A stretch of 64,000 nucleotides of DNA, from NCBI RefSeq assembly GCF_015482585.1, contig NZ_CP049742.1:2449001-2513000 (forward strand), in the 5' to 3' direction. The DNA is from Mangrovibacillus cuniculi (GTDB lineage Bacteria > Bacillota > Bacilli > Bacillales > R1DC41). The notes under the pieces were generated by a model, which saw only the letters and a list, made by a program, of their open reading frames with translations, did no database searches and was not told the DNA's origin. Shown here in pieces: positions 26,155 through 33,248 of this stretch (position 1 is the first letter of the stretch; each line of letters begins with the position of its first letter). The translations under genes and the position numbers were made by a program.

Positions 26155-26748
26155 GGCTTTACTGCTTTGTCGCCGGCTTCTTTTTTGCGGCATGGCGACT
26201 TTCTCCCTTTGTCGCCTGCTTTCTTCTTGCGGCATGGCGACTTTCTCCCTTTGTCGCCTGCTTTCTTCTTGCGGCATGGCGACTTTCCCGTTTTGTCGCC
26301 GGCTTTCCTCTTGCGGCATGGCGACTTTCTCCCTTTGTCGCCTGCTTTCCTCTTGCGGCACGGCGACTTTCTCCCTTTGTCGCCGGCTTTCCTCTTGCGG
26401 CATGGCGGCTTTCATGCTTTGTCGCCTACTTTCTTCTTGAGGCATGGCGACTTTCCTGCTTTGTCGCCTGCTTTCTTCTTGCGGCATGGCGACTTTCCTG
26501 CTTTGTCGCCTGCTTTCTTCTTGCGGCATGGCGACTTTCCTGCTTTGTCGCCTGCTTTCCTCTTGCGGCATGGCGGCTTTCTCCCTTTGTCGCCTGCTTT
26601 CTTCTTGCGGCATGGCGGCTTTCTCCCTTTGTCGTCTGCTTTCTCCTTGAGACATGGCGGCTTTCTCGCTTTGTCGCCTGTTTTCTTCTTGAGGCATGGC
26701 GGCTTTCTCGCTTTGTCGCCTGTTTTCCTCTTGCGGCATGGCGGCTTT
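26155..26748. repeat. Tandem array A2: about fourteen 42-bp units with GGCGAC/GTCGCC arms
   Basis: Units have the same architecture as array A1 (6-base arm, 11-base loop, 6-base arm, 19-base linker; total 42) but a different loop (TTTCTCCCTTT or similar) and linker (TGCTTTCTTCTTGCGGCAT). Later units change one arm to GGCGGC, which still pairs with GTCGCC through a G-U. Frames stay open on both strands because 42 is a multiple of three. One minus-strand frame ends three bases before the lipoprotein start, but its product would be a 14-residue Arg/Gln/Glu repeat with no known counterpart. Confidence 0.92.
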
Positions 26749-26749
26749 C

Positions 26750-27017
26750 TCCGACTTGTAACAGGGTCCCCTCTCTTTTCACCGCGGCTTCTCCCACTTG
26801 TACCAGGTTTTCCTCTCCTTACACCGCGGCTTCTCCCACTTGTACAAGGATTCCCTCTCTTTTCACCGCAGCTTCTCTCACTTGTACCGGATTTTCCTCT
26901 CCTTAAACCGCGGCTTCTCCCACTTGTACCAGAATTTCCTCTCCTTACACCGCGGCTTCTCCGACTTGTACCAGGGTCCCCTCCCTTTTCACCGCGGCTT
27001 CTCCGACTTGTACCGGG
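26750..27017. repeat. Tandem array D: six to seven 42-bp units with CACTTGTACC and CCGCGG
   Basis: The unit is of the form CTTCTCCCACTTGTACC, a T/C-rich stretch, then CACCGCGG. Two subtypes partly alternate (CTTTTCACC and CCTTACACC). It abuts array A2 directly and has the same 42-base period but unrelated sequence, and ends at the post-terminator element downstream of tdk. Confidence 0.88.
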
Positions 27018-31649: not shown

Positions 31650-31677
31650 AAATCCCTCCAATTTACCGAGGGATGGG
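31650..31677 (-). promoter_or_regulatory. Expression platform: hairpin hiding the GH114 ribosome site
   Basis: ATCCCTC and GAGGGAT form a perfect seven-base-pair stem around a nine-base loop; the 3' arm is the ribosome site. ATC of the 5' arm also belongs to P1 of the riboswitch, so the two structures compete. A short TTTT follows. Confidence 0.75.
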
Positions 31678-31762
31678 TGGTTTCGCAGACTGGCGATCTT
31701 TATTCTAATAGAATCGAAGACCCATGTCTTTGCGTCCTTGGCTTTCACCAAGTTTGCCCATC
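31672..31762 (-). ncRNA. Cyclic-di-GMP-I (GEMM-I) riboswitch
   Basis: On the minus strand P1 is GATGGG/CCCATC, joined to the conserved GGGCAAAC; then comes the stem CTTGGT-GAAA-GCCAAG with its GAAA tetraloop, the invariant GGACGCAAAG, and a third stem GGTCT...AGATCGCC leading into CTGCG before P1 closes. These are the conserved blocks of the GEMM-I class in the right order. P1 shares bases with the hairpin that hides the ribosome site, so ligand binding should favour translation of the hydrolase; that direction is inference. Confidence 0.95.
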
Positions 31763-31777
31763 ACCAACTAGTATTTA

Positions 31778-31783
31778 ATTATA
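31778..31783 (-). promoter_or_regulatory. -10 element upstream of the riboswitch
   Basis: TATAAT on the minus strand about 15 bases before the riboswitch P1. The -35 region (TAGAAT near 31801-31806) is weak. It indicates that the hydrolase can be transcribed independently of pelG. Confidence 0.5.
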
Positions 31784-31844: not shown

Positions 31845-33248
31845 TTACGAAACTTCTTTTCTCATAAAGATATAATAATCTGCATCTTTCACATAGTATT
31901 GTAAACGAAGTGCACCAAATAAGAAGGAAAGCGTGGCACCAATGGCAAAACCAACTCCGTACCAATCAATTCCAAAAGGTAATAAGAATGCTGTCACACT
32001 AGCAATCCCAACTAAAAATAAGAGATTCGTGTATGCTGCTCCCTTTCGATCGTCAAAATAGAGTAGCAATAGAGAAAACGATAAGACTAAACTAGTAGAA
32101 AAAACGCCTATAATGGTCATCGGTAAAATATCATAGTATTTACCACTAAGCTCAAAAATACTTACCATTGTAGGAAGTAACAAGAGTAGTAGAAAAGAAA
32201 AGAGACCCTGTGTTCTCACCAGTCGAATGACTTCCTCTCTTAGCACCCGTAACATGGAAGATTTACTTTCTTTAATTTGCTCCAGGCTTCCTCCTTCGTT
32301 TATATACCCGTAAAACGACCAGTATCTTTCATAAAATCTTGTTTCAATAGAAATCACAAACATCATCATGGTAGGAATAATGGATAAAAAAGACCAAAAC
32401 ACTGCTGTATCATAAGACGGATGATAACGAAATGTTCCTTCTAATAGGATTGCCCCTTCCCCAAACCAGATAATGCCGTTATGAACCCATAAGCCAATCC
32501 CATACGAAACTCCAGTAATTACTAAAGCAGGATACTTCTTTGCATAAGCTAACGCTGCAAACGGACGCTTAGAATTTCGATCTGGAAAACTTCTTAACAT
32601 GTTGTATAAAAGCATACAAAAAGTGGTCAACATCCCGCATAAGAAAACCACAAGCATGATTGCAGCTCCTTGTAGCGGAGTCATATAGGATAACCACCGA
32701 TCAAATGGTAGTAAGATATAGCTTAGGACAATGATTCCAGCTCCTACTGCAAAAGCTCGAATGACATATTGATACGTCTTCATAGCATTACTATATAGAA
32801 ACAGCACCCAAATTAAGTTCATTGTTAAGAAAAGTAAAAGTAACAACCAATCATACCAGAAGGGAATAGGAGTCAATAAGGCAAAAGGTAGCCACAATAA
32901 CAAGGCTGCTACTACCGTTACCTTCATTAATCCAATACTGGATGAAAAGACATCATTCATTTTTTTCTCATAAAATAGGTCTGCCACATATCTCGTAACA
33001 AAAAGTTGTAAGGACATAAAGATAACTTGAGAGAAAACAAAGGTGTAGGACACACTCACAACAAATAGCTCTTTTGTCAGTAAATTCGCTCCATCCCTTA
33101 GCATCCCCCACTGTAAGAATGCCAAGGTTAGTATTGTCACCAACCAAGGTCCAGAAGTGATGAGAATAGTAAACGCATACGCTCGTGCTCTAGTAGAGAA
33201 GTAGTCTTCTCGAAACATTTTTTTCAATTGAAATCCAATGCCGGCCAT
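31845..33248 (-). CDS. pelG: Pel exopolysaccharide transporter PelG
   Basis: A 467-residue polytopic protein with about twelve membrane helices, of the MOP/Wzx-like flippase superfamily. The N-terminus MAGIGFQLKKMFREDY is typical of PelG. It is expected to carry the nascent Pel polymer across the membrane together with PelD, PelE and PelF. It starts one base after the pelF stop, and the ATG follows GGAGGGAAGTAG within pelF. It is the last gene of the main pel transcript. Confidence 0.9.
   Translation of the reverse strand: MAGIGFQLKKMFREDYFSTRARAYAFTILITSGPWLVTILTLAFLQWGMLRDGANLLTKELFVVSVSYTFVFSQVIFMSLQLFVTRYVADLFYEKKMNDVFSSSIGLMKVTVVAALLLWLPFALLTPIPFWYDWLLLLLFLTMNLIWVLFLYSNAMKTYQYVIRAFAVGAGIIVLSYILLPFDRWLSYMTPLQGAAIMLVVFLCGMLTTFCMLLYNMLRSFPDRNSKRPFAALAYAKKYPALVITGVSYGIGLWVHNGIIWFGEGAILLEGTFRYHPSYDTAVFWSFLSIIPTMMMFVISIETRFYERYWSFYGYINEGGSLEQIKESKSSMLRVLREEVIRLVRTQGLFSFLLLLLLPTMVSIFELSGKYYDILPMTIIGVFSTSLVLSFSLLLLYFDDRKGAAYTNLLFLVGIASVTAFLLPFGIDWYGVGFAIGATLSFLFGALRLQYYVKDADYYIFMRKEVS

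Follow-up and report, generated by a model that had tools for sequence, protein, structure and literature searches.

How does a cell that both makes and cuts a matrix polysaccharide coordinate the two activities? The question is raised by a stretch of 64,000 nucleotides (hereafter the window), in which a pel-type gene cluster is followed, on the minus strand, by a gene for a Pel-type hydrolase. In B. cereus, PelD must bind c-di-GMP for Pel to be made, deletion of pelAH leads to more biofilm, and added PelA_H disrupts Pel biofilms (excerpts of PMC7112168). The B. cereus pelDEA_DAFG cluster and its separate pelA_H (BCE_5582), described in the same excerpts, comprise the same genes as the cluster in the window, which is laid out as follows.

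39525-38596, minus strand: galE-like epimerase (Pfam Epimerase, 215.5 bits)
38603-37374, minus strand: pelD-like gene, with a membrane part, a GAF-like middle and a degenerate GGDEF-like end carrying RxxD (REVD) (family profile and motif)
37381-36476, minus strand: pelE-like gene, placed by position only and by relatives that occupy this spot in other pel clusters; no Pfam match
36498-34658, minus strand: pelA_DA (DUF2194), in two overlapping frames, 36498-34975 and 34990-34658 (Pfam and sequence)
34599-33250, minus strand: pelF (Pfam DUF3492 and glycosyltransferase group 1)
33248-31845, minus strand: pelG (Pfam PelG, 428.9 bits)
31646-30807, minus strand: pelA_H-like gene, 279 aa, GH114/GHL15 family (Pfam; signal-peptide-like N-terminus by eye)
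30805-30768, minus strand: intrinsic-terminator-like hairpin directly after pelA_H (terminator scan)

The order of Gram-positive pel clusters (pelD, E, A_DA, F, G) is present, with pelE assigned by position alone and pelA_DA split. The first pelA_DA piece scored 315.6 bits against DUF2194 and the second 20.6 bits, below the cut-off of 30.4; the pelA_DA frames of relatives are at least 603 aa long in 59 of 61 cases and 507 aa in two. The split lies beside homopolymer G and A runs, and a sequencing error may account for it. As for NCBIfam, the best match of the galE-like protein was galE at 209.7 bits (cut-off 262.3), no family was returned for PelAH, PelG, PelE or either PelA_DA piece, and PelD gave a sub-cut-off transporter match only. 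Elsewhere in the window we noticed two adjoining 42-bp tandem arrays at 26165-26752 (14.0 copies) and 26741-27014 (6.5 copies), in which both strands carry long open frames, and an L31-Firmicutes ribosomal protein leader (RF03156, 40.1 bits) at 28098-28068 on the minus strand.

The initial annotation of this locus had placed a Pel-type hydrolase behind a c-di-GMP riboswitch, with a c-di-GMP receptor protein PelD nearby, and both assignments were supported. Besides the aptamer match given below, the hydrolase matched GHL15 (46.4 bits, cut-off 27) and GH114 (38.3 bits, cut-off 27) in Pfam, and the best solved relatives found with a profile of its family were the PelA structures 9cgy, 5tcb and 5tsy. 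D154 and E216 are invariant in all 25 PelA_H sequences, as candidate counterparts of the catalytic acidic residue E213 of the B. cereus enzyme. The PelD-like protein of the window had no Pfam family above cut-off, GGDEF included, and GAF_3 was found in five of eight PelD relatives. A profile of the PelD family matched diguanylate cyclase structures over the C-terminal part (6khu, E 8.8e-7). Of 58 aligned PelD rows, 53 retain RxxD, among them that of the window (REVD).

We then turned to the leader that separates pelG, which ends at 31845, from the ATG of the hydrolase gene (31646-31644). The features that the argument needs are the following.

31778-31783, minus strand: TATAAT, a possible -10 box of an own promoter, by eye; no good -35 box
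31768-31681, minus strand: c-di-GMP-I riboswitch aptamer (RF01051), from cmscan; position 1 is 31768
31765-31757, minus strand: strand P, aptamer positions 4-12, GGUGAUGGG, which holds G31758 (G11) and G31757 (G12)
31681-31678, minus strand: ACCA, which could pair with UGGU at 31766-31763 and so supply the 3' side of a short, shifted P1
31677-31668, minus strand: strand T, positions 92-101, CCCAUCCCUC, complementary to P and to H
31659-31652, minus strand: strand H, GGAGGGAU, which holds the Shine-Dalgarno sequence; its GAGGGAU pairs with AUCCCUC

The proposal of a GEMM-I riboswitch was borne out by a covariance search. In cmscan against Rfam, the leader matched RF01051 at 70.6 bits (E 7.9e-12), over positions 1-87 of the 87 of the model, where the gathering score is 35 bits. 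The 3' end of the aptamer lies 34 nt from the pelA_H ATG. In the Rfam alignment the equivalents of the ligand contacts are kept, G31758 corresponding to G20 of Vc2, A31731 to A47 and C31685 to C92, and G12 (G31757) and C13 are both paired inside the aptamer; the equation of G11 with Vc2 G20 and the pairing C were taken from Cd1 in excerpts of PMC9262584, and the other contacts from the alignment. In aptamer sequence, fold and G/A/C contacts the leader is the same as the known members of the class, Vc2 and the OFF switch Cd1. Judged from the alignment, the aptamer before pelA_H is a variant member of RF01051, and class membership makes it a putative c-di-GMP binder. Neither a second aptamer nor a class II riboswitch was found in the 64-kb window at Rfam gathering scores. 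The TATAAT is missing from the list of a consensus promoter scan, whose promoter count equalled chance, and the folding energy of the whole leader was unexceptional (z -1.82, with 12 of 200 shuffles equally good).

The genome as a whole gave 14 GGDEF and 8 EAL matches and holds four c-di-GMP-I riboswitches. Of the other three, one precedes a 95-aa frame, one a chemotaxis receptor and one a GGDEF protein; a hairpin enclosing the Shine-Dalgarno sequence is found only at the end of the riboswitch before pelA_H. The riboswitch before the GGDEF gene (L004, 1501-1579, plus strand) has a terminator-like hairpin, and could provide feedback on c-di-GMP synthesis.

The genome of the window is the sole member of its genus and family in our collection, and recurrence was sought in relatives. 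Among 397 sampled genomes of the order, 40, its own included, had a PelAH match at E 1e-8, and 351 had some c-di-GMP-I riboswitch. An Rfam match just upstream of the PelAH gene was found in 11 of 29 relatives, ten being RF01051 and one RF03167 (GGC variant). With an own covariance model built from 13 aptamers and a threshold of E 0.5, 76 named PelAH loci (1.37 Mb) gave 27 matches, 25 of them upstream of PelAH, within about 600 nt and on the same strand, under 12 genus names, and two elsewhere. The window and 42 further stretches gave 15 matches, 14 at PelAH (that of the window included) and one elsewhere; the 29-relative, 42-stretch and 76-locus sets overlap and have genomes in common. None of the matches in the 76 named loci, or in the 42 stretches and the window, lay ahead of pelD on its strand. 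By sequence, then, the association of the aptamer with PelAH is conserved and no one-off.

The presence of the aptamer varied with the place of the gene. It was found in 12 of 31 loci where pelA_H is divergent from pelD, in 4 of 10 where it follows pelG, in 7 of 12 that have pel close by but arranged differently, in 2 of 12 with no pel within 9 kb, and in 0 of 11 where pelA_H stands ahead of pelD in the same direction. The last figure is suggestive only, as 7 of these 11 loci are from Exiguobacterium. A quick protein tree grouped the window with two Fictibacillus rows (SH-aLRT 99) and left 21 of 74 inner branches open; five labels placed on the tree required 9 changes, where shuffled labels required 25 on average. 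The element is thus clustered on the tree, probably old and sometimes lost.

Two observations on individual genomes were made in the course of this survey. Exiguobacterium sp. SL-9 has three PelAH genes (L116, L089, L127), with a riboswitch on the one divergent from pelD and none on the copy before pelD or on the copy without pel nearby. In two genomes of one genus code (one of them Ectobacillus antri), the pelA_H aptamer has an enlarged tip loop on its third stem, with an insert of about 65 nt in L043 (8800-8956; the same locus as L014) and of about 450 nt in L047 (10400-9830, minus strand; the same locus as L101 and L017). The two inserts share a repeat motif absent from all other fetched loci. 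After them come the remaining 3' half of each aptamer and then its ribosome-site hairpin.

How the aptamer could act on the hydrolase gene depends on the three strands. The perfect hairpin burying the start site, ATCCCTC/GAGGGAT in the initial annotation, was found as described, a 7-bp stem of AUCCCUC (31674-31668) and GAGGGAU (31658-31652) which encloses the Shine-Dalgarno sequence GGAGGG; its loop is 9 nt, the stem ends 5 nt ahead of the ATG, and T5 follows it. GATGGG (31762-31757) and CCCATC (31677-31672) had been taken for the closing P1, sharing ATC with the hairpin. Their exact complementarity and the overlap of CCCATC with the hairpin arm in ATC stand; what was not confirmed is the identity as P1, as the helix contains G31758 and G31757. 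The P-T duplex of the window has a predicted energy of -13.2 kcal/mol.

We examined where P1 normally lies in 60 control c-di-GMP-I riboswitches, not selected for PelAH but the top-scoring ones of an order-wide list, and thereby biased to the Rfam consensus. In these, positions 4/86 covary (observed 0.73, expected 0.38, z 5.6) and the adjoining 5/85 are mostly constant. The usual P1 pairs 5-85 and 4-86 can both form in 46 of the 60 controls and in none of 17 pelA_H leaders, of which two can form 5-85 alone and one 4-86 alone. The window has G5/G85 and G4/A86 at these positions and so lacks the usual pairs, in which it differs from the Vc2/Cd1 class. The pelA_H leaders thus belong to the class I aptamers but lack the usual P1. 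The RF01051 model itself contains no P1 pairs, so this absence marks a variant and not a non-member. The same follows from Cd1, which binds c-di-GMP without P1 (excerpts of PMC9262584).

The P-T helix pairs the core residue G11 in all 17 unique leaders and G12 in 14 of them. Since it would engage the aptamer core, and since the usual P1 is absent in the pelA_H leaders, the P-T helix is better read as a candidate anti-aptamer helix than as P1. A change of G20 in Vc2 is reported to lower binding 30,000-fold (excerpts of PMC4744006), and the G11/G20 position has been described as a selectivity factor and no hard filter (excerpts of PMC9262584). The antiterminator of Cd1 likewise costs ligand binding (same excerpts).

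It had also been proposed that P1 and the ribosome-site hairpin exclude each other. When the core was enforced in ViennaRNA, the core in the window was closed by the helix GGUG/CACC (CACC at 31679-31676), not ACCA/UGGU, and the ribosome-site hairpin formed too. A core-compatible P1 thus need not exclude the hairpin, at least in the model. The predicted alternatives concern T, which would pair with either strand, P-T being the anti-aptamer state with the ribosome site free, and T-H the state with the ribosome site closed.

The sign of the switch was addressed with sets of leaders that differ between tests. From 32 aptamer-bearing leaders, 23 entered the tests with a locked core or a cut RNA; L101 (with a large insert), L136, L138, L123, L129, L131, L137, L140 and L142 were set aside, and near copies are still included. 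Removal of the near copies L077, L035, L094, L096, L044 and L045 gave the 17 leaders of the strand-swap and P1-pair tests, the P-T shuffle test used 19 (these 17 together with L136 and L138), and core-enforced folding of the kind described for the window covered 10 leaders. To lock the core, its pairs were enforced with G11 and C84 kept free, and a change was counted if larger than 0.5 kcal/mol.

With the core locked, the energy needed to open the ribosome site rose in 19 of 23 leaders and fell in four (L078, L084, L049 and L043). In the window it rose from 3.2 to 8.4 kcal/mol (+5.2). Ligand binding had been supposed to expose the ribosome site. The folds point the other way, as a locked core closes the site further in most leaders and the competing helix takes up G11 in every one of the 17 leaders and G12 in 14. 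When the RNA was ended just ahead of the Shine-Dalgarno strand, G11 or G12 was paired to the tail with a probability of at least 0.87 in 22 of 23 leaders; in L049 the value was 0.02. An order in which P-T forms first is coherent, because pairing in the cut RNA is highly probable and a locked core raises the opening energy. Shuffled tails already reached a mean tail pairing of 0.79 against 0.95 for the real ones, and against dinucleotide shuffles P-T was better than chance (p<0.05) in only 7 of 19 leaders, a modest result; chance pairing is high because a G-rich ribosome site calls for a C-rich partner in the tail. Even without the core lock, many leaders are dominated by the hairpin at equilibrium, so that a switch needs kinetic control.

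Conservation of the two pairings was examined by exchanging strands between leaders. We used swaps and not a position-wise covariation table because the tail of L008/L011 came out misaligned in MAFFT and the groups do not share one P-T register. Two main sequence groups, GAUGGG/CCCAUC and GAGA..GGC/GCC..UCUC, both keep P-T and T-H with different letters. For P-T, cognate strands gave -11.6 kcal/mol and swaps between groups -7.4 (mean loss 4.2); for T-H the values were -12.2 and -8.8 kcal/mol (mean loss 3.4). Swaps inside one group cost nothing (P-T -11.8, T-H -12.0 kcal/mol), and the evidence for coevolution therefore rests on the two main groups.

Taken together, the most probable reading, to which we assign a probability of about 0.6, is that the c-di-GMP-I riboswitch is a translational OFF switch on PelA_H, the sign being inferred from the folds. 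During transcription without ligand, P would pair with T; the Shine-Dalgarno sequence would then emerge unpaired, and the hydrolase would be made. With c-di-GMP bound, G11 and G12 of P would be held in the aptamer and T would be freed; freed T would pair with H, the Shine-Dalgarno sequence would be closed, and translation would stop. At high c-di-GMP, PelD would turn Pel synthesis on and the riboswitch would turn cutting off, and at low c-di-GMP the reverse would apply.

The opposite sign is possible, though we consider it rather unlikely. In a translational ON switch, the ligand would stabilise the outer part of P-T (GG.GAUG/CAUC.CC) as a P1, which would hold T and free the ribosome site, and the hydrolase would be a trimming or release enzyme produced along with Pel. 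With the core locked, the outer P-T pairs can indeed persist in the cut RNA, and with the usual P1 missing from the pelA_H leaders another helix may serve in its place; the four leaders that open more easily on core lock also fit. Class I ON switches exist in bacilli, Bc2 being one (excerpts of PMC11218506), and in P. aeruginosa the hydrolase activity of PelA makes secreted Pel (excerpts of PMC9894940), so that co-induction would be sensible. Against this, opening the site in the window costs 8.4 kcal/mol with the core locked and 3.2 without, the P-T helix does not lie at the P1 position of the controls, and G11 complementarity is present in all 17 unique leaders, which a pure P1 would not need.

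It appears improbable that the main role of the hairpin in this genome is to terminate transcription. UUUUU does follow its stem, and the other three c-di-GMP-I riboswitches of the genome have hairpins with U runs, as seen by eye. Nevertheless, the Shine-Dalgarno sequence lies inside this hairpin, whose stem is 5 nt away from the ATG, and the same hairpin occurs without a U run in L012, L014 and L015, as do its counterparts in L008 and L011; lacking a U run, it is no terminator in these five. The omission of the window hairpin from the terminator scan is no evidence against a terminator, as the scan is limited to loops of 8 nt and this loop has 9. The least credible reading is that the aptamer is a relic which now controls nothing in this strain, as the split of pelA_DA might hint, since the ligand contacts, tetraloop stem, hairpin and invariant acidic residues of the hydrolase are all intact and the split, near homopolymer runs, may itself be a sequencing error.

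The translational OFF reading applies to leaders with a ribosome-site hairpin, and other platforms occur before PelAH. In two Tumebacillus leaders a terminator replaces the hairpin, and the best duplex between P and the tail enters the 5' arm of the terminator (-13.3 and -13.2), giving the same topology; compared with shuffled tails, with the tail cut at the end of the arm, this pairing was not beyond chance (p 0.21 and 0.58). A further group of PelAH leaders (group C: L123, L129, L131, L137, L140 and L142) has c-di-GMP-I aptamers with a platform different from both types.

The nearest precedents share parts of this arrangement. Cd1 has a terminator where the window has a ribosome-site platform, and the target in the window is a Pel hydrolase. 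Class I riboswitches occur in Bacillaceae as Bc1 and Bc2 of B. thuringiensis, Bc1 upstream of mcpE with a dual terminator and Bc2, an ON switch, upstream of cap (excerpts of PMC11218506). In C. difficile, a class I OFF riboswitch silences the protease ZmpI/PPEP-1, and the adhesins CD630_28310 and CD630_32460, which are ZmpI substrates, are under class II ON riboswitches; the excerpts of PMC6366702 propose that c-di-GMP raises a surface structure and silences its remover, as it would here. C. difficile uses riboswitches on both sides and a protease, whereas the window has the PelD protein on one side, a riboswitch on the other and a polysaccharide hydrolase.

Three elements are thus known already: the aptamer class, the occurrence of class I riboswitches in bacilli, and a pel cluster with a separate hydrolase. 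The target, the platform and the circuit of PelD and riboswitch were not found in the literature searched. Within open-licence PMC literature, the tables of the early GEMM surveys not included, we found no c-di-GMP riboswitch before a Pel hydrolase, and the view of the initial annotation that the two-level circuit is undescribed agrees with this. No account of PelA_H control was found in the literature searched either, and the word riboswitch does not appear in PMC7112168.

A wider statement can be made at roughly even odds. c-di-GMP would run a pair of making and breaking activities, in which PelD turns Pel synthesis on, while translation of the hydrolase is turned off by a variant of the class I riboswitch that lacks the usual P1 and has a recurrent platform of three strands. 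In bacilli the platform would come in two types, the ribosome-site hairpin and the Tumebacillus terminator, besides a third, as if selection keeps the link between signal and cutting. If the switch is OFF, the same signal that makes Pel would stop the cell from cutting Pel. Recurrent RNA control of the cutting enzyme, at 25 named loci under 12 genus names, would be a direct answer to how the making and cutting of a matrix are coordinated, and the pelA_H leaders, as class I riboswitches that naturally lack the usual P1, would form a series in which to study how the sign of a switch is set.
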